Part shown: positions 51,446 through 64,000 of the stretch, piece after piece
Numbering within the stretch: the first letter of the stretch is position 1
Layout of the letters: each line of letters opens with the position of its first letter
Assembly (NCBI GenBank): GCA_029204225.1
Contig: CM055092.1
Coordinates: 10,133,806-10,197,805, forward strand
Reading direction: 5' to 3'
Length of the DNA: 64,000 nucleotides
Source: Diphasiastrum complanatum
Lineage: Eukaryota; Streptophyta; Lycopodiopsida; Lycopodiales; Lycopodiaceae
Program-made: the position numbers and the translations under genes
Notes under the pieces: model-generated
The model's input: only the letters and a program-made list of their open reading frames with translations
What the model was told of the DNA's origin: nothing
The model's database searches: none

Positions 51446-52440
51446 GCTTGAGGGGATGCTGGAAGGTCATGACGTGCTTGTCTTGTGTCCTCACATAATA
51501 TTATCAATTCTCGCATGGTGAGGAAGTTTCGCTTAGCTATTGTTCCATTTGATTATTGGTATACTGTTCAAATGCAATGTAGAATGTAGATGTCGATTAA
51601 TTTTTTTGTTTCTTGATTTTGTAGTCTCGGCATGCAGGTAAACTATATAGGCTGAGATTGTGGATCTGATCTTGCATTTTTACTAACAATCCTATCTTTG
51701 ATTGTTCTTGGATATTCCAAGCATCAAGAAATGGGTGTTTCTTGATTCTTGGGTTGCTAGAATTTTGTTAGGAAGTTAGCTTTCTTGATTCTTGTTTCTT
51801 GTTGTGTAGCTTAACTACGTTATTGTATTGTTCCCTGATTTCTTAGGATAGTTTGGTAGATAGATTGTAGATTTGCTCTCTGTCCCATAATGTTATATGT
51901 CCTTAAGCAAGGATTGGTTACAGGACCTATAAATGCATGTAGTTGAGTGAACGTAACCATTTCATCCCACTGACAGACTGGGAATTCTCGTTGAAAACTG
52001 AGAAGCATTTCTGCCCTGACACCGTTCTAAATAAGAGGACTTAATTGTAAAGAACTGGCTTATGAAAACAGGTAGAAACACCTGGTTTCCAGAGCGGTAA
52101 CCACTTGAGATGTAACAAACAGAAGAGAAGTAAAGAAGAAAAAAAAAACCGTGTTCACAGATTCGGCTGGAATCTGTGAACATTTGGTGCCATTTCCATA
52201 GCTACACAAACACTTATCAACGTCAAACCTTTCCGATCTGTGCTGCCAAACCATCACTCTGAAGTCTCCCACATGCATACTTATAGAGCTCGTCACTTTG
52301 GTCTCAACCGATGTACAGCTCCATTTTCGATCGAGGCCCCACGCTCCTCGTCTAGACCAGACCGGACCTTGTTTCATTCACCTATTGAAACCACACACCG
52401 ACTCTCGACTGAATCCCTACTAGACATATCCTGCCAAGTC
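51446..52440. other. no gene recognised
   Basis: T-rich sequence with a TTTCTTGATTCTTG motif repeated between about 51610 and 51800. No coding signature. Confidence 0.45.
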
Positions 52441-52446
52441 CCGAGT

Positions 52447-53088
52447 TAAACCTCAACCGATGCTCATCGATCAGATCTCACCCGAGCCTTTCAGTTGACA
52501 TCTCGATCGAAGACCTTCTGTCCCATCTCAACCGGAGCCTTTCAGTTCAATCTCGACTGGAGGTTTTCTCTCATATCTCGACCGAAGCTTTCTATTGGAT
52601 CTCGACCGGAGACATCTTGTCATATATCGACCAGAGGTTTTCTCTCAGATTTCGACCGAAGCTTTCTATCGAATCTCATCCGGAGACATCTTGTCAGATC
52701 TCAACCGGAGGCTTTCTCTCAGATCTCGACTGAAGCTTTCTATCAAATCTCAACCGGCAGCATCTTGTCAAATCTCGATCGAAGGCATCCTGTCAGATCT
52801 CGACCGGAGGCTTTCTGTCAGATCTCGACCAGAGGCTTTCTCTCATATCTTAACCGAAGCTTTCTATCAGATCTCAACCGGAGGCTTTCTGTTAAATCTC
52901 AACCGGAGCCTTCCGTCCTGATCTCAACCGAACACATTCTGTTAAATCTCGACCGAAGCACTCTGTCTGATCTCGACCAAAGCCAATTACTCAGATCTCG
53001 ACCAGACCATTCCTTAGATCTCGACCAGACCTTTCTATCAAATCTCAACCGAGGTTTTTCTATCAACTCTCAACCGAGAGTTTCAACT
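52447..53088. repeat. 25-bp minisatellite (about 25 copies)
   Basis: Units of 24-26 bp such as ATCTCGACCGGAGGCTTTCT follow each other with drift throughout. Because 25 is not a multiple of three, translation cycles through three related peptides, giving open frames of 215 and 108 codons that are artefacts of the repeat. It lies just left of a copia remnant, and may belong to its lost 5' end. Confidence 0.88.
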
Positions 53089-53134
53089 TACAGTCTGAAC
53101 CAAGTCAACTCCAAAACAAAGTCAACCTTATTAT

Positions 53135-54592
53135 TTGACTAGCTCTGAGGTGTTTGCCAAATACCATAGTTCTTTTCCAATTTATTGCAAAACCCTAACA
53201 CCCAAAAAAACAAAAAACTATGCCATTTGGACACAACCACATTATTCGTCTCTGATGAATATCTTAAAAAAAAAAAACAGTAAAGTTACCAAAGAGTCCA
53301 AGAGGCCTACTTGCCCAATTCTAAGGTACTCTAGATTTGTTATGGATCGTCCTTACGATCCGAATTCCACAGACGACTATCCACCAGAGATGGTCTCTCC
53401 ATCTACCGAACATGCTCGATTCAATAGATATTCTAGGATGAAATCCCAAGTCCAAGATCCATCAACCAATCCATTTGACAGATGGAAAATAAGAAACTCA
53501 ACATCATGTGTTTGTGCTGATCTATGTTGTTCATCGAATTCGAAAATTTGAGCACATTTTGTTTTCTAGAAACAAATTTTATCTGACTATAAGAAGACAA
53601 ATTTTTTGAGATTCAATATACTTGGAGATGTTTCTAAACATGAAGTTGATGGAACTGGTGTATTGTGGTTAGACATGAATCAGGGTGGCGAGAAACTGGA
53701 GGAAGTTCTCTATGTTTCTACTCTCGATAAAGATCTTCTATCGGTAGCAAAGATAGTCGACACAGGAATGTCAATAACCTTCATAAGGGACTCTTGTAAA
53801 TTGCTCAATGAAAATTCTGATAACCTAGTTACTAAAGGTAACAGAAATGGATCGAGTCTACATACCCGAAACTGGAAGAATAAAAGTTGTTCGAGATGTC
53901 AAATTTCGAATGGCCAATACACCCTATCGAAGGTTGATTGGATCGTTGTTGTATCTTGCCGACAACACTAGACTTGATATAGCATTTGCTGTATACAGGC
54001 TAAGCCAATTTAGTTAGAACCCAAGATCGTTACATTGGAAGTTAGCAAAAAGAGTAGTACATTATCTCCAAGAATTGGAAAACTATGGACTCTGTTATTC
54101 GAAGGAAGTTGGATTTCGAATCGAATCTTACAGTGACGCAAGCTGGGTATCCATGAAGGATGATAGCAAAAGTATTTCAAGAGGTTGTACTCTAGCATCT
54201 GGCACAACCATACTTTGGATAAGCAAGAAGCAAACAACAGTAGCTCAATCTTCATGTGAGGCTGAATATGTAGTAGCAACTAAGATGACAAATGAGCTGA
54301 TATGAATCAAACAAATGTTGCAAGGATTTGATAAAACTATTTCTGAACCTTGTGTCTTACTAATGGATCTTCATCAATCTATCTTATGAAAAATCCTGTG
54401 TTTCATCGAAAATGAAACATGTAGCTATCAAGTATCATGTTATCCGGGACTTAGTCGAAAAGAAGATACTGAAGATGGCCTTCATACCTACAGAGGAAAT
54501 AATAGCTGCTATCTTTACAAAGCCACTCAGTAAAGCTTTGTCTGAGAAGCAGCGGAGAAGATTTAATCCAACTGCCCACTTTGAGAGGGAGC
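53135..54592 (+). pseudogene. internally deleted copia, plus strand
   Basis: 53606-53870 reads FNILGDVSKHEVDGTGVLWL and LEEVLYVSTLDKDLLSVAKI, the post-protease region, closely related to the element at 333-6877. It then jumps to ANTPYRRLIGSLLYLADNTR at about 53910, the end of RT, so integrase and most of RT are deleted. RNase H follows (SYSDASWVSMKDDSKSISRG, VAQSSCEAEYVVA) and the MKHVAIKYHVIRDLV and FTKPLSKAL tail. The polypurine tract is TTGAGAGGGAGC at 54581-54592. Confidence 0.85.
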
Positions 54593-55182
54593 TGTAGAAT
54601 ACCTCAACAGACAAATCTCGGTTCTACCAACAAAGTGCATAGTCTAATTGACAAAGGCTGAGAAACCGAACTCGAAACATTTGTATTCTTGTTCGAACTA
54701 CATTCGAACTCGAACTTTATTCGAACTCGAACTCAAACTCTATTCGAACTCGAAAAAAAAGAAGAATAAATGAACTCTGGAAACAGAACGTTATTTTATA
54801 TCAACCGCCTTAACGATTAGATCGACTGTTACAGAAGGAAGAAGACCAAAAGACCTATCGGTGACAATATATATACATGTACACTTACTTATTGTATGTG
54901 CAAGACAACAAGAGATGTATATAGAAGAATCAGAATCAAAATTAACAAAATTCGATTGATCAAAGTTTGCAACAGATGATTTTTCTCAGTTGTTCTGATT
55001 ATCTAAAACTGTCTATCACACTCACTCATATATCTCCTAAAATCTCTTTATTCAATCAAAGTAGAAACTGCTCTATCAGTACATAGACCAGAATCAGACA
55101 CGATTGAAGACGTTGATATAAGTTTGATTTATTCAAACTTTCATCGTGTTCTCTGAAAGATAATTCCTAGTATTTTTCCTAC

Positions 55183-55183
<1 letters not shown>
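54593..55183 (+). repeat. 3' LTR of the deleted copia
   Basis: 591 bp from TGTAGAATACC to TTTTTCCTACA, with the inverted ends TGTAG/CTACA. Inside, 54688-54755 has repeated TTCGAACTCGAACT units. No matching 5' LTR is found in the window. Confidence 0.75.

Positions 55184-55186
<3 letters not shown>

Positions 55187-55234
<48 letters not shown>
55187..55234. repeat. (GA)n microsatellite
   Basis: About 48 bases of GA dinucleotide directly after the LTR. A shorter GA run is at 55293-55314. Confidence 0.9.
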
Positions 55235-55238
<4 letters not shown>

Positions 55239-55713
55239 GCGAGCATATCTCCGTGAGCACTTACATTAGAGATTAGGGTTTTTAGCTTTGTCGCTGAGAG
55301 AGAGAGAGAGAGAGATTGATGCGTTCCATTATGTCATTTTGTGGAGGTGGAGAATGAGATGCTTTCAATCCTGTTGAATGCTTCATGCAATCTGAGATTT
55401 CTTTAGATCTGTGACCTGAATTTTCATTTGAATAGTGCTGCTGTTTTTGGGATTGAATAGGTCGACCCAGGGCTAGGGCTGTTTTAGGGTTAGGGTTACA
55501 TTTTTAAAGTTTTTGGGACTGAAAATATCCACGGAGTGAGGTGCTGGACAGGTGAAAATAGCCAGAGGTGCTGGACAGATGAAAATAGCCATATCGTTAA
55601 TCCGTGACATAGAAAGACGCCCTAAGTCCCATTCAATACTACCTCAAAAGCTTTTGCCGGGAAAGGCTCGTTTCAGGGAAGAACACAAGAGGTGAAGGCG
55701 AGGAGTGGCGGCT
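55235..55713 (+). promoter_or_regulatory. promoter/leader of the O-fucosyltransferase-like gene
   Basis: It contains TTTAGGGTTAGGGTT at 55483-55497, a double telo-box of the kind found near transcription starts of plant growth-related genes, and a duplicated GAGGTGCTGGACAGGTGAAAATAGCCA block at about 55535-55590. No TATA box is obvious. Confidence 0.45.
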
Positions 55714-56212
55714 ATGGCGGAGCTTAGGCACTCCTCAGCAGCAGGAGGGGGTGGGGGTGCCGCTGTAGCGAGGCCTTCAGCTGCGCGCCACCACCCCGAT
55801 GCAGCAGCAATATCAACACTGTTATCACCCCCCCCCTCTTCCTCCAAAGATTTGGACCACGTCGATCATGTGGAGCAGCAACAACAGCAGCAGCATCATG
55901 GAAGCCGCAGGGAGTGGCGCTTTACTTCAGGATCAGCAGGCAGCATGGTAGCAGGGGCTTTTCTTGCGCTTCTTCTACTCCTGGCTGTGACCCTCACTCT
56001 GGCGCCTTCCATCTGGAGCCACCTCGTATGTTTCCTTTATTTGTTTTTCATCTTTAGGGTTTTAGGGGTTTCTGTCTTGAATGTTTTTCTTCTTGATCTA
56101 ATTTACGTAGTTCAATCCCTGAAAGCTTGCTGAACATTTCTTCGCCTATGCCATGATGCAGCGTCCTGGCTACCTTTGCAAAAAGGAAGGGTTCATTCTG
56201 CGTTGCCCGCCC
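55714..56212 (+). CDS. O-fucosyltransferase-like protein, first two exons
   Basis: Exon 1 (55714-56025) starts MAELRHSSAAGGGGG and has a basic/Gln-rich cytosolic part, then one hydrophobic segment near residues 78-97 (AGAFLALLLLLAVTLTLAP), a type II signal-anchor arrangement. Exon 2 (56162-56212), joined CTC|GTATG...TGCAG|CGT, encodes RPGYLCKKEGFILRCPP. That block closely matches the YLCKEDGIxLxCP segment just after the anchor of plant GDP-fucose protein O-fucosyltransferase family members, which act in the Golgi/ER lumen. Its donor GTGAGT is strong. The catalytic exons are not found in the remaining 7.8 kb, so the assignment rests on the anchor and this short motif. The first ATG in a good context was chosen; a GTG nine bases upstream is not used. 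Confidence 0.68.
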
Positions 56213-56900
56213 GTGAGTCTTTTCATCTATGCCAACAAACTATGCTTGAGACCTAAAGCTTTTACAGTTGCGAGCTTTTAGCACAGTTTCGAACACTCAA
56301 TATTTGATCATTTTTTAATAGGCTCAAATCAATGTATTGACATGCATTCATTTGTTTTGAATTTTCCTTTTCGCGGGTTTTTTAAGGAAAATTTCTTCTT
56401 ATAACGAACTTTAAAATCGAGAATTTTAAATCAAGCCTTTGATATATGTGTTTTTTTTTGTGAAATTTCGGTCTTTCTTAACTTTTTTATTTTTGAAACT
56501 TTTCAGCTAGAGTGCAAATGTTCTCTTTCAGGCATCATTGGACCATCAAAACCTTATATGTTGTGATAAACACATGGATTTGCATAGCATTCATTCTTGT
56601 GAATTCATGCACACTTACTGCTTACATGAAAGACATAACCAAAACAAGAAATGCAGCAAAATGACACTTATTACCTAAAAATATGGAGCACACACAGGAA
56701 AAGCAATGTTGCTCGTTGTATCTATAAAACTGCTTGAGTGGCATTCGAAGGATACATAGCTAAAGGAACACGGTTTGTGGTATGCATAAAACTTTTCGAG
56801 CCTAGCCTGCGACAACAGGCAGCTCAACATAAAAGGCAAACAAAGCTGGAACATCCATCCGTACACACACTATGTACATAAATACAACAACAGAAGATCA
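56213..56900 (+). other. start of the large O-fucosyltransferase-like intron
   Basis: AT-rich, no coding sequence. From here to at least 64000 no exon for this gene was found. Confidence 0.5.
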
Positions 56901-57843
56901 CTATCCGAAGATAGTTTTCCTATCGATGACCTCATGATCGAGAGGGATATATGTAGCTTCTTCATTATCGAGTGGTGAGAGAGGGGTCTCCAGTGTGGAC
57001 ATATCATTCGGCGTGTTTGCATTAGGATTTGCACTGTGGATGCTATGATCAATGCTTCGTGTTCTTGCTCCAAATTATCGTCCACGTGCAAGCTGTCTTG
57101 CAAAGAAGATGTTCAATGTTACCAAGGCAGGAACCAACATCGCCCGCCACGTTGATGCTGCTTGCTCTACATCCATACCAAGACCTTTGGAAGGTGTAAC
57201 CCAAGCTGCAGAAGGAAAATACTTTGCGGTTCTTAACATTGACAACAGACAAGCTATGAAAGATTGACCCATAGAACAGGTTGTACACGAATGCCCTTTC
57301 AAACACATTGCACGAAGTCAAGCAGACTCTGTTATTCACTTCAGAAGATCCCAGCTTTGCATAAAGCTCTTTCCCAAGCTCGAGGTCCTTAGTTTTAACA
57401 TTGTGTAATGCAACCTAGAAATGAGACTTTCCGAAATCCTTCAAACAATAGCCTACCATACCATGGAATGTATGCAAACCCTTTTGTGTGAGTGTCTTGC
57501 ACATGACCAGAGCTCCTGCTGGTGCTTGCACATCCCAACCCAACTGGTGCTTAATCTGCAAGTTCACGGTTTTGGCACTGGTGGCCATGATTCGACATGT
57601 CATTTGAAAATGCAAGTGCAGTAGCGTGCCTCCCCTCTCCAAAGCACACACCCCAGCTACACATTTCTCTGTTAGAAACTATTGCAGCAAAGGTAGCAAG
57701 CGAACGTCAACGTTCCCCCCTCCACAACCAACGGTGATGTTAAGTTCCAGATACTTCATGTTTGGTAAATTCACCTTCTTCACCTTCGATGGTGGCCTCC
57801 CACGCCCACGACCTGGATGTTTGGATGTGCTTCCGGTGTCCAT
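56901..57843 (-). pseudogene. HUH/Rep-like endonuclease (Replitron- or CRESS-Rep-like), broken
   Basis: On the minus strand a nearly open frame starts at 57843 (MDTGSTSKHPGRGRGRPPSK). YLELNITVG is a motif I-like strand. LERGGTLLHLHFQM is motif II with an HLH metal-binding pair at 57611-57619. Fifty-four residues later MVGYCLKDFGKSHF is motif III, with the candidate nucleophile tyrosine at 57448-57450 and the YxxK lysine at 57439-57441. The part after motif III stays coherent (VKTKDLELGKELYAKLGSSE, then in another frame YFPSAAWVTPSKGLGMDVEQ and STWRAML), then a third frame gives an acidic end to 56901. Breaks: TAG at 57679-57681 and 57415-57417, a frameshift between about 57300 and 57245, another near 57075. 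No helicase domain is seen. Family name is inferred from the motifs. Confidence 0.6.
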
Positions 57844-57909
57844 ATGTATATTCTGCATTCAGAACAAACAGAAAGTTTTGACAGAGCTTTGCAGATGAGA
57901 GACAGAGAC

Positions 57910-58520
<611 letters not shown>

Positions 58521-58640
58521 GTGTCATGTTGGCCATATCTTTCGTTGGACACGTGCCATGTTGGCCTTAACAAAAACATTGCATGGCCACGTGTCAGGTT
58601 GGCTCAAAATTTTTTGAACACGTGTCGCGCAACATGTGTT
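58521..58640. promoter_or_regulatory. cluster of G-box (CACGTG) motifs
   Basis: ACACGTG/CCACGTG/ACACGTG cores occur at about 58549-58555, 58580-58586 and 58618-58624, each in a CACGTG(T/C)C context and next to a repeated ATGTTGGC string. CACGTG is the core of G-box and ABA-response elements. No start site is evident beside it; it may be part of a repeat. Confidence 0.4.
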
Positions 58641-59250
58641 TGGACATGTTGATGTGGCATGACACATGTCGTGCACATACTCACCGGTGGGATGTATACC
58701 ATCTTCGTGTTGAGCGCGTATTGGTCGACTAAACGTTTTTCAAAATAGTGGGAACATATTAGCTACAACTTTGTAATCGTTAGCCAAGTCTTTTACAGTC
58801 ATTTGGACTATTGGAACTTGACCTTTTTTTTTTGATTAGTAATGGCTTCAATAGAAATGAAATTCGTTGTCACACTTAGGTACATACAAATCTACCATTA
58901 TGCATCTTCATGGGAATTTGGCCATATCTTTTTACTTTGTACTAAAATTTATCCCCTAGAAAAACTTCTTGACCAGTTCTCAGTTGTGTAAATTGAATGG
59001 AGCACTCCTTATATGGGGGTATGCTCAGTGATGCCCCATATGCTGACGTCCCTTACTCTATAAGCATTGCTGACTCCTCTCCACCTTTGTTCTTGCAATT
59101 TTGAATAAAGTACCCACGTTGTTTCTTATAATTTCTCAATAAGTTTCTTCTTTTTACACTTAGATACAAAGCGACTGTACGTACCACAATAATTATAGTT
59201 ATCATTTGTCCTTGGTGAGGTACTGCTAATCTTGGCTGATGTGTAACTAC
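58641..59250. other. no gene recognised
   Basis: AT-rich with no coding signature. Confidence 0.45.
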
Positions 59251-59620
59251 AATCTCGAGTCTTATGATTGTACTTACGTAGTACTTATTTTAGATTAGGA
59301 AGGGATTTTTTAAGACTTCTAGTTGACAATCTCAAAAGTCATTTTTAACATACATGTATCGTAAATTCCAATGTTGCCAATGCTAAATCAAGTGTCATGG
59401 TAAGGCATCTTAGGCACATGTGCAAACATTTCATGATAACGACTCCTTGTTGTTGGGTATACTTCTTTGCTACAAGATTGGCTTTGTGCTTATCTATCAA
59501 ACCATTTGCATAAGATATTGTTCTATACACCCATTTATGTCAAAGAGGTCTCTAATCTTTTGACAACTCCACTAACTTCCAAGTTCTATTTTTCATTTTT
59601 GGGTTATATGTTGGAATATC
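59251..59620 (-). pseudogene. copia reverse transcriptase fragment, minus strand
   Basis: The minus strand reads NRTWKLVELSKD then VYRTISYANGLIDKHKANLV and AKKYTQQQGV, the N-terminal half of copia RT. A stop lies after LSKD. No other part of the element is found next to it. Confidence 0.8.
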
Positions 59621-59650
59621 AATCCACACTCTAGAGAGAACTATCCAACA

Positions 59651-59723
59651 GGGCAGATAGCTCAGTGGTAGAGCATCCCATCCAGTATGAGGGAGGTCCT
59701 GGGTTCGAATCCTAGTTTGTCCA
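59651..59723 (+). other. tRNA-like sequence, probable SINE head
   Basis: 73 bases, GGGCAGATAGCTCAGTGGTA to GTTTGTCCA, fold as a tRNA: seven-pair acceptor with two GU pairs, D stem GCTC/GAGC, T stem CTGGG/CCTAG. The A box TAGCTCAGTGG and B box GGTTCGAATCC match the consensus. The anticodon stem has a mismatch and position 33 is C rather than U, so a working tRNA is unlikely. Together with the following non-coding body this is best read as the head of a tRNA-derived SINE, or a tRNA pseudogene. Confidence 0.65.
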
Positions 59724-60152
59724 TCCATATTATGATTTATGGATTTCCTACATCTTATCAAAGCAACCGGATCTGCAGCAAGCTTGTATGTTGGCACCTT
59801 ACCAAAAGAGGAGCTACTCTACTTTGTGATCTGAAATTTCAGCATCCTGCTGATTTTTCCAAGTGGAGTTTGGATCAGCTTTTTTGTCTCTTTTCAGGTT
59901 GAAGGAGGGCGCCCATCATTTGGCTTCCTCATTGGTTTCGGTGTAGGCTTCAATCGAAGCTAACCTAATTTTCAAGAAGCTGGTTTTTTTGTGCAGAAAA
60001 ACAGCCATCTATCCATTATCTTTTGGGCACTTTGGTTGCAGATTGGTAGACATCTTGTGCTCTTATTTTCAGCTCATTGTTTACTGGAAATTTGCGAGTA
60101 GATTTGGCTTTGGAAAGGCTCGCTTTCCTATCTACTACAAGCTGAAATTCTG
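59724..60152 (+). other. SINE body or copia leader, no gene
   Basis: The sequence between the tRNA-like head and the copia gag. No primer-binding site or LTR border could be recognised. Confidence 0.35.
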
Positions 60153-61035
60153 TTGGAGGTAATGGCGAAAGAATCGGAAGCTATCGGTTCTTTGTTTAGT
60201 GAAGAGCGGTTGGATGGCACAAACTACTCCTTGTGGAGTTACATGATGAAACATTTTATAATAGTGAAAGGGCTATGGGATTTCGTCAATGGTGATGAGG
60301 AAAGGCCTCCTTCTTTGGCACCTACTACACCTTGTGGATCATCATCATCATCATCTTCTACATCTTCGGAAGAATAAAAGAAGTCGGATAGAAGGGATGC
60401 ACAAGCACATTCTATGGTTGCTTTTGCGGTGAAAAGATCTATCTTACCTCATATTAGATCTTGTAAGACATCTAAAAGTGCGTGGGAAACACTTAATACG
60501 ATGTATAGGGTCAAAAATCCAACAAGAGTGGTGTATTTCCGAAATCAACTTTCTATGTTGAAGATGCAAGAAGGGGATCTAGTGACCAATCACTTGACGA
60601 AGATCAAGGATCTTCGTGAGGAGCTTCTCAATATTGATGAGATAATTGAGGATGCTCAATTTGTTTCCATTACTCTCAACTCTTTACCTTCCTCTTATCT
60701 TCCATTTGTTTCATCTTTGAGTATCTTGGGCTGCTTCTTCAAGAGGAGCGAATGAGGCAAAGCTTGGCGGGTGACACTCAACAAGATCAAGCTTTCTTCA
60801 TGAAAGGCAAGGGCAAAGGCAAGTCAAAAGGAAAGGGGAAGCCTCCTTCCAAGGATGAGCAAAAGCCCATTGGAGGACAAAATGTCAACACTCAAAAAAA
60901 GAAAGGGAAGTGCCGTTATTGCAAGAAGTATGGGCACTTCATCAAGGATTGTAAGAAGCAGCTTGCGAAAGAGGAGAGTAAAGGGATTGATACTAGTGCT
61001 TCACCATTCAGGTTCTGTTTTGCAAGTTGTTGATT
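60153..61035 (+). pseudogene. copia gag, plus strand
   Basis: The frame from 60162 (MAKESEAIGSLFSEERL) has DGTNYSLWSYMMKHFIIVKG, the gag opening with W-spacing. KTSKSAWETLNTMYRVKN and LTKIKDLREELLNIDEIIED continue in a second frame after a stop at 60375. The knuckle CRYCKKYGHFIKDC is at 60911-60952. A frameshift lies near 60730. Confidence 0.88.
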
Positions 61036-62530
61036 TTCAGTCCATTAAATGGGTGATTGATAGTGGTGCTATCGTCATATGACTTTTCGCAAAGAAGCAT
61101 TCACGAAATTAGTGAAAGTGCAAAATGGAAGCAAGGTACAATGTGCAGATAATGCATCTTATCCTATTCATGGAATGGGAATTGTAGCCTTCAATTTGGC
61201 TAATGGTGAAGAAAAGTACATTAAGAATGTGCTTTATGTTCCGGGAATCAAAACGAGTCTTCTTTCGGTTTCAACTATGTTGAAGCAAGGACTAGTTGTT
61301 GAGGTAAAGAAAGATAAGTGTCTTGTCAGGGATCCTAAAAGATGGATACCTATGAGTGACGAATTCCCTCTACATGTCTTGTAGCTTCTACATCACAATC
61401 ATTGGAGTTGGCTGAATTGTGGCATGCAAGGTTTGGGCATCTCAACTTTGCAAGTTTGAAGAAGCTGAAGACATTTAATATGGTAGAAGACATTCCTACT
61501 ATTGAGCAGCCGAAAGGGCATGTATGCGAGGGGTGCATATTTGGAAAGTTTCAAAGGAAGCCTTTTCCAATTGATGGAATTGTAAGGGTTCTTGATAAAT
61601 TTGATTTGGCTCATAGTGATGTTTGTGGTCCAATGAGGACCGAATCCATTGGAAAGTGCATCTATTTTGTGACTTTTATTGATGACTTTTCCTGTTTTAC
61701 ATGGATCTATCCTATGAAGGCTAAATCGGAAGTTTTTTTAACATTTCAAAGATTTTCCAGCAATGGTGGAAAATTAGTTTGGGCATTCTTTGAAGACCCT
61801 ACGCAACGATCGAGGAGGGGAATACATAAAGAGTACGTTCGGTGCATTTCTTCGAGAGAAGGGAATTCCACATCAAATGACAACTCCTTATACGCCTCAA
61901 CAAAATGGTGTTGCCGAGTGAAAGAATCGCACACTTATGGAGATGGCCCGTTGCATGCTCAAAGCAAAGGGGCTGCCTCGCAAGTTTTGGGCTGAAGCGA
62001 TTATAACGGCGGCATACATAAGCAATTGTAGTCCTACTAAAGCATTGAAAGTATTAACTCCTTATGAAGTTTGGTATGGGAAGAAGCCCACAATCTCTCA
62101 CTTTCGTTTTTTTGGTTGTATGGCTTATGCTTTTATTTCGGAGAAACTTCGTACAAAGCTTGAGGATAAATGAGTTAAATGCATTTTTGTTGGCTATAGT
62201 AGTGAAAGCAAAGGCTATAGGCTGTTCAATTTGAGCATTAACAAGATTATAGCTAGTCGTGATGTGCATTTTAATGAAAAGAATTCATTAGATGTGGCCT
62301 CAACTCATATCTTGAAGGGGGACAGCCGATATAGTGTGAATGTTGAAGTTTTTCCAGATTTGGTACCATCTTCTATTTATGGAGATAAGGGGTAGCAATC
62401 AACTAGTTTCGAACTGCCCAACACCTCATCGAGTTTAGAGCCTAATGTATATCAAGAACCGCCCATTGTTGCTTAAAATCAGCTCAGAGCAGTTTCGGAA
62501 AATCTTGGACAACAAATTGCAAGAAGAGAC
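61036..62530 (+). pseudogene. copia protease and integrase, plus strand
   Basis: IKWVIDSGAIV at 61044-61078 is the protease site, broken by a deletion just after GA. LWHARFGHLNFASLKKLK and CEGCIFGKFQ (61418-61550) are the pre-integrase region; HSDVCGPM and TFIDDFSCFTWIYPMKAKSE are integrase. A one-base shift near 61790 breaks the NDRGGEY part. The later KGLPRKFWAEAIITAAYISN and ISHFRFFGCMAYAFI blocks are intact. A stop at 62171 follows. Confidence 0.88.
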
Positions 62531-63410
62531 ATGGCTGTTGGACAACCCAAAACAGTCCCACGGTGGCTGTTGGCGACTTTGCGGGACAACAAAGTAAGTT
62601 TATTTTATAATGGAAAGACACGTGCCTCTACAAAATCAGTGGACATGCTGATTTTTTCAGATTATGCTCTTGCATCTCATGGAGATGTTGCAGGAGAACC
62701 TGATTTTTATGAGCAGGCCAAGGGAGTAAAATGTTGGGAGGATGCGATGCAAGATGAGTATGATTCACTCATGGAGAACCAGATTTAGGTTCTTGTTGAT
62801 CTTCCTTATGGGAAGAAGGCAATTGGTTCCAAATGGGTATACAAAATCAAGTACAAGGCTGATGGTACCGTTGAAAGGTACAAGGCAAGGCTTGTTGCCA
62901 AAGGCTATGCTCATCAAAAGGGGATTGATTATGAGGAGACTTTTGCTCCTACCGCTCGGATGACTACCGTGAGGGTAGTAACCTCTTTGGCTGCCCATTT
63001 TGGTTGGCGTTTGCGGCAACTTGACATAAAGACAACATTCCTCAATGGTGATCTCAATGAGGAAGTGTACCTTCAACAACCTGCTTGTTTTTGGTTGAAG
63101 GCCAAGAAGATAAAGTTTGTCTTCTGAAGAAGGCACTTTATGGACTGAAGCAAGCCCAAGGATGTGGTATCAGAAGATACATGCCTACTTTTGTGATCGA
63201 GGGTTTACTAACATTCCTAGTGAATCTACTCTTTTCGTCAAACATACTTCGGATTTTATCATCATTATTTTGCTTTATGTTGATGATATTATTGTTACGG
63301 GAAGTAATGAGCAGCCGATTGATGCCTTAATACTTGATCTTGGTACGGTTTTTGAAACCTCAGATTTAGGCCTATTGCACTTTTAGAAGGGGCTGGAATT
63401 TTCATCTCTC
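62531..63410 (+). pseudogene. copia reverse transcriptase, plus strand
   Basis: CWEDAMQDEYDSLMENQI, then after a stop VPNGYTKSS-equivalent (frame: SKWVYKIKYKADGTVERYKA) and VCLLKKALYGLKQA. The catalytic LLYVDDIIVTGSN block is at 63273-63311. SDLGLLHF ends it. Stops and two frameshifts are present. Confidence 0.88.
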
Positions 63411-64000
63411 AAGAACGCTACATTGGGCAGATTTTGAAGCGGTTCAATATGGAAGACCGTTTGCTACACCTATGGAGGCAGGCCCGAAACTAAGTAGTCA
63501 AGGTGATGGTGAACCATTTGATACTACTTTATATTGTCAAGCTATTGGCTGTCTCATTTACCTATGTAATCCAAGACCGGACATTTCTTATAGTGTCCCA
63601 CTCATGAGTCAATTCATGCATGCCCCGATGACATCACATTGAAAAGTGCTAAAAAGGATCTTTCGATATCTTCAAGGAACAATAAGTCATGGACTGGTTT
63701 TTCCTGCTTGTGATGATGCATGTATGGTTGGTTATAGTGACTCGGATTGGGGTTGAGATCAAGACACTAGATGCTCGACAAGTGGACATTGCTTTTTCTA
63801 TGGAAATTTTGCAATTTCTTGGTCAAGTAAAACGCAGTCCACTGTTGCTACTTCTTCTAGTGCCTCATCAGAACGGTCTATGAGATGTACTTTTTGTTTG
63901 TAATGATGCTCAACAAATTGTGCAAATGATTCTCTATGGAGTGTCATGTAGACATGTACCATAATCAACTTACCCACCACCCTTATGCTTATCGGTCAAC
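63411..64000 (+). pseudogene. copia RT end and RNase H, plus strand (runs off the window)
   Basis: CQAIGCLIYLCNPRPDISYS at 63538-63597 and, with frame changes, GYSDSDWG and STSGHCFFYGNF with WSSKTQSTVATSSS at 63730-63860 mark RNase H. The element continues or is truncated at the window edge; no LTR is reached. Confidence 0.8.

Follow-up and report, generated by a model that had tools for sequence, protein, structure and literature searches.

The locus and its broken gene

The window, by which we mean the whole stretch of 64,000 nucleotides analysed here, carries a broken transposase gene on its minus strand. This gene almost certainly belongs to a Replitron copy that is dead and truncated at its 3' end; Replitrons are eukaryotic DNA transposons without a helicase (Table 1). 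The element as a whole (about 2.16 kb) is larger than the span for which the gene was first reported (56901..57843).

Table 1. Features of the putative Replitron copy and its gene, in positions of the window.
Feature	Position	Strand	Basis or remark
Replitron copy (highly probable), group A, 2159 bp	56602..58760	-	blastn pile-up of same-genome relatives; 5' end present, 3' end truncated
5' terminal AATATGTT	58753..58760	-	reappears past the 3' end of relatives, to a varying extent
Polypyrimidine (TC)n-rich tract between 5' part and gene	57961..58517	-	tandem-repeat detection
Broken transposase gene	56901..57858	-	aligned to an uninterrupted 324-residue relative; carries three in-frame stops, a four-residue deletion and one frameshift (near 57270)
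AT-hook-like GRGRGRPPSK near the N-terminus	57784..57813	-	below Pfam cut-off (AT_hook, E 0.68)
Motif I-like YLELNITVG	57727..57753	-	sequence
HUH motif HLH	57610..57618	-	sequence; follows ERGG
Motif III YCLKD with single candidate catalytic Tyr	57436..57450	-	sequence
Frame-shifted C-terminal part with Replitron_C domain	56904..57272	-	Pfam and comparison with relative

When compared with the uninterrupted relative, residues 1-194 of this reference correspond to one frame that contains two TAG stops, and residues 198-324 to a second frame, in which the third stop and the four-residue deletion are found. The nearest relative spanning the entire 958-base gene is 91.2% identical to the window copy. 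An earlier sequence-only reading of this DNA had proposed that a real gene was inactivated here, and the comparison bears this out; the damage it had counted as two TAG stops and at least two frameshifts in fact involves a third stop, a single frameshift and also a small deletion.

The three motifs named in that reading (YLELNITVG, HLH after ERGG, and YCLKD) are present in this order in one minus-strand frame, which is far above chance. The E-L of YLEL occupies columns that are invariant among ten relatives, and motif III, read as GYCLKD, offers one candidate catalytic tyrosine (Y1). As for the AT-hook-like stretch near the N-terminus, an AT_hook match with E 0.37 was obtained in one of the four full-length relatives scanned.

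Against Pfam, the open piece of 87 amino acids matched Replitron_HUH (PF21859) with E = 1.5e-12 (48 bits, cut-off 28.5). When the whole minus frame was used and its stops were replaced by X, the same profile was matched with E = 5.3e-15 over positions 10-127 of 128, and a piece from another frame matched Replitron_C (PF21860) with E = 2.4e-8. The HMMER-type check with Replitron profiles that had been suggested along with the motifs thus found both domains above cut-off. Replitron_HUH and Replitron_C also exceeded their cut-offs in the four full-length relatives scanned, with the domain order of the window. Because of the scores of the Replitron profiles, a chance origin of the motifs is excluded. 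At Pfam E values up to 0.05, all three minus-strand frames of 56001-59500 yielded neither a helicase nor any third family. By its motifs and profile matches, the transposase is predicted to be a single-tyrosine endonuclease of the Rep-type HUH class with a C-terminal Replitron_C domain. The original idea of an HUH/Rep-like endonuclease without helicase is borne out by the Replitron profiles and the lack of a helicase family. A profile search against solved structures was without match up to E 5, and a single-sequence fold model of the window gene (pLDDT 37) was too poor to place the HLH and the tyrosine.

The gene had also been assigned to an intron, for which we found no confirmation. An exon-like open stretch is visible by eye upstream on the plus strand (about 55714-56026), and no downstream exon was identified. 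When all three plus-strand frames of 52001-64000 were scanned for exons with Pfam, at E values no higher than 0.05, retrotransposon domains of the Copia type were the only hits. A Copia-type retrotransposon occupies window positions 60180-63410 on the plus strand, with parts of gag, integrase and reverse transcriptase distributed over three frames. Furthermore, a diverged tandem array of 25-base units (20.5 copies, 69% matches) is located at 52471-52978.

Ends and internal tract of the element

When 20 genomic neighbourhoods were aligned with the window, the 5' ends coincided at 58760 (AATATGTTCCCAC), and the match broke off sharply at 56602. The 3' tails of 13 relatives were inspected: eight extend about 90 bases further, to GATTTTTTGAAATATTTTAAG, and then continue with CC, TC or TG, their termini reading AAGYC or AAGTG, and the remaining five are rearranged or end short. 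Because relatives run on beyond its end at 56602, we consider the window copy to be 3'-truncated, with about 90 bp missing. Its own terminal repeat is invisible for the very reason that this 3' end is missing.

Of the 27 copies whose 5' end is clear, among them short ones that lack a gene, 26 have a (TC)n run of at least 12 nt at a distance of about 205-385 bases from this end, loose pattern matches having been dropped by eye. Since it is present in nearly all of these copies, the (TC)n tract is regarded as part of the element.

In gene-bearing copies the paired ends are 1.7-2.6 kb apart, disregarding pairings with stray or tandem 5' ends, which reach 3.36 kb. Short gene-less copies occur at nine of the 20 loci, with ends 538-913 bases apart and without a transposase match. 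Most of these nine lengths are below the minimum of 0.9 kb quoted for Replitrons, and the window copy is within the quoted range.

Eight sequences were folded, of which one (L028:2310-2429) is not an end. No terminal hairpin stands out in the four true 3' ends among them (L028, L036, L044 and L049; z-scores -0.30 to 0.83). The lowest z-score, -1.7, belongs to the truncated 3' end of L027. A genome-wide 3'-end pattern was left unused, being too unspecific (2615 matches versus 2055 in a reversed control).

Copies in the genome and rival origins

The genome searched comprises 1.74 Gb in 5176 contigs. It contains eight matches to LEAFY (best 3e-52), a mark of land plants or their close kin, and 26 matches to dynein heavy-chain sequences (best 2.5e-96), which in a plant are a mark of flagellate sperm. 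Taken together, the host is therefore a non-seed land plant; the genomes of cycads and Ginkgo are far larger than this one.

With the 87-residue piece as query we obtained at least 150 scored matches among 199 candidates, a number which includes split matches of one copy as well as small contigs that repeat large ones. For Replitron_C, 65 matches were found. The matches are spread over large contigs; reading frames are uninterrupted in some copies, and many others are decayed. The search of the source genome for intact copies, which the sequence-only reading had advised, yielded several matches with uninterrupted frames.

We read 19 group A copies (L001 and L019-L036, one match per locus, leaving out the shorter duplicates L002-L010). 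Sixteen of them retain an HUH motif (14 HLH, 2 HFH) and 18 the tyrosine of motif III, shares that do not represent all copies, the 19 being among the best matches to the window. For 13 copies, the window's and decayed ones included, the whole-gene omega of group A is 0.59 (0.45 under another codon model). The log-likelihood of -3610.6 is 12.8 units better than the -3623.4 at the best grid point with an omega of 1. As expected, this fits a transposase gene under selection in active lineages with many copies decaying.

Some loci have a more complex layout. On the minus strand of L028 (about 1650 to 2940), a unit made of a group A 5' end plus its flank occurs four times in head-to-tail order, the period being 367 bases. 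In L020, a stretch of about 4 kb harbours two group A copies tail to tail; one of them is joined at its 5' end to a further 3' end.

The uninterrupted frames and the purifying selection in group A would also agree with a host gene derived from a Replitron by domestication, of which the window locus would now hold a pseudogene. We regard this as very improbable, as the matches are dispersed over large contigs and many of them are decayed. In addition, the copies share element ends, two of the 20 end pairs are accompanied by target duplications (see below), and nearly half of the 20 loci have the short gene-less copies described above.

Beside a Replitron, the sequence-only reading had considered a CRESS-type Rep that became endogenised; the source would then be a DNA virus of the geminivirus, nanovirus or circovirus kind. 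Such Reps are broadly the same type of enzyme, having HUH and a single tyrosine, and Craig is said to have described Replitron and CRESS Reps in 2023 as distant kin. At E values up to 5, with filters that drop most matches above about 0.1, no such Pfam family was found in five pieces. The minus frames of 56001-59500 are devoid of a helicase family, and a scan of viral contigs with one protein, the reach of which is close relatives, found none. The element moreover has defined ends that are common to many copies. We therefore hold a viral origin to be scarcely credible: from the pair of options, the Replitron one stood, its profiles being matched, and the CRESS one did not, no Rep profile of that kind being matched in the five pieces.

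A Helitron or a fragment thereof, although likewise a eukaryotic HUH transposon and compatible with rolling-circle-like junctions, is the least probable origin of all, given the missing helicase, the one tyrosine in motif III, the four folded true 3' ends in which no hairpin stands out, and ends (AATATG and AAGYC-AATATG) unlike the TC/CTRR of Helitrons, so that the early verdict against a Helitron holds.

Second and third subfamilies

A second Replitron subfamily shows 55-59% identity in the HUH part. Here the first histidine of the HUH motif is replaced: nine of the ten copies read have NLH and the tenth has DLH (L011, L013, L037, L038, L059-L063 and L069; L012 and L014, which duplicate L011 and L037, were not counted). 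One of these copies, L037, shares its contig with the window copy, at a distance of about 63 kb. In a midpoint-rooted tree of 51 rows, with duplicates and matches under about 95 residues left out, the NLH and DLH copies form one clade together with eight longer-branched rows that have the first histidine. These eight are placed inside the NLH rows with weak support, and the tree does not fix the direction of change.

Pairwise counts in the HUH part suggest selection on the NLH copies. The case for strong purifying selection in this subfamily is weakened by a whole-gene omega of 0.69 (0.58 under another codon model), the log-likelihood being only about 2.6 above that for an omega of 1. The NLH copies may have moved in trans. 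These relatives of the window copy bear on the question whether the HUH motif tolerates change.

A third Replitron type was seen at two near-identical loci (L015 and L016), with HLH kept, an arginine in place of the motif III tyrosine (GRCLKD) and an open frame.

The genome-wide pattern for the 3' end of the second subfamily gave 2366 matches at up to two mismatches (708 in the reversed control). Among the 100 perfect 3'-end matches listed (C1-C7), 90 run directly into (GA)n or (GT)n: 72 into GA, 7 into GT, and 11 into a GA run of 8 followed by other bases. For the 5' end of this subfamily, 30 rows have no more than one mismatch, and such a repeat precedes 13 of them. The repeat next to these ends is a microsatellite tail or else reflects a preference for such targets.

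3' ends and proposed transposition mechanism

On reading the table of 76 distinct loose-pattern rows, 24 were chosen as true 3' ends, in which TTTAAG is followed by C or T and then by C or G. Past the 3' end, the sequence equals the element's own 5' start for at least 5 nt in 17 of these 24 ends, versus 1.9% of random locus positions. The match lengths are 0 (two ends), 2 (three ends), 3, 4, 5 (five ends), 6 (two ends), 7 (three ends), 8 (three ends), 14, 16, 24 and 28 nt, with four ends thus reaching at least 14 nt. The 28-nt case corresponds to the full length of the reference, and there the 3' end is joined to a further copy (L020). A pattern for 3'-to-5' junctions was matched eight times, and not at all in the reversed control; one of the matches is just a usual 3' end, and two pairs are apparently duplicated, which leaves about five separate cases. 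In one of the junction cases, the 5' start runs for 16 nt before the sequence becomes unrelated (451 bases read).

We read the variable run of 5' start after the 3' ends as overshoot on a circular or tandem template. As the main alternative, this sequence would consist of remnants of tandem copies that were deleted later. Microhomology between the target and the 5' end could be behind the shortest matches, but it hardly accounts for those of 14 nt and more.

Target duplications flush with the 5' end, of 21 bp and 16 bp, were found in two of 20 end pairs, which are partly dependent on each other (L020, L024 and L028 are represented twice each, and L050 and L051 are near duplicates). Both duplications score above all of the 374 mismatched pairs (maximum 13.5), and a third end pair is marginal with a score of 11.5 versus a 99% point of 11. 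In the 16-bp duplication the second copy begins 8 bases past the 3' end. For the other 17 end pairs there is no convincing long target duplication, and lengths of 2-8 bp are indistinguishable from chance.

Returning to overshoot on a circular or tandem template, transposition of the living relatives would most probably proceed as follows. The enzyme would nick one strand at the AATATG of the 5' end and would remain covalently joined to this end via its tyrosine, and the single strand would be displaced by a host polymerase. Copying would then reach, and often pass by a few bases, the junction of the 3' end with the 5' start, the template being a putative circular or head-to-tail tandem intermediate. 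The new copy would enter another site, and the old copy would stay where it was. The window copy, for its part, has lost its 3' end and acquired its stops and frameshift.

In combination, these observations lead us to a tentative proposal, possible but on the whole rather doubtful: the terminal direct repeats of Replitrons may be a footprint of overshoot (0 to 24 nt, and once a whole copy) instead of a fixed part of the element, their ends may record a circular or tandem intermediate, and the Asn-Leu-His subfamily may have spread with the first histidine being dispensable. In any case, the related copies provide testable clues on how Replitrons move, namely a variable 3' overshoot and some long target duplications.

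Comparison with known systems

Helitrons are eukaryotic HUH transposons as well, and they are thought to use a rolling circle. They possess two tyrosines and a fused helicase, whereas the window element has one tyrosine and no helicase. With the Reps of CRESS DNA viruses, the element shares the Y1 HUH endonuclease class. Those Reps include a superfamily 3 helicase and are part of a capsid-bearing genome; the window element, in contrast, is without a helicase and without a close viral relative in the scanned contigs.

According to the passages on Replitrons in a 2023 review (PMC10741241), these transposons exist in liverworts, mosses, lycophytes and ferns and are absent from hornworts and seed plants. 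The same passages give lengths of 0.9-4 kb, terminal direct repeats of 5-11 bp and target duplications of 2-8 bp. The earlier remark that such elements are little described in land plants is outdated in view of the several non-seed lineages listed there. What looked like a rare plant gene fragment is, with near certainty, part of a recently recognised transposon group with many copies in the genome of a non-seed plant. Taken by itself, the window copy is an ordinary member added to the known Replitron group. None of the passages of the Replitron literature used for comparison deals with this genome, the founding description being outside that comparison.

Measured against these passages, the element agrees with Replitrons in its Y1 HUH and Replitron_C domains, the lack of a helicase, its kilobase size and its non-seed plant host, as well as in the short direct repeats at the ends, which are seen in relatives of the window copy. 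It differs in three respects from what the passages describe. Stretches of the 5' start of at least 14 nt follow four of the 24 3' ends, compared to direct repeats of 5-11 bp, and the target duplications in two of the 20 end pairs are 16-21 bp long, compared to 2-8 bp (PMC10741241). The third difference is the internal (TC)n tract that 26 of the 27 copies have in this genome.
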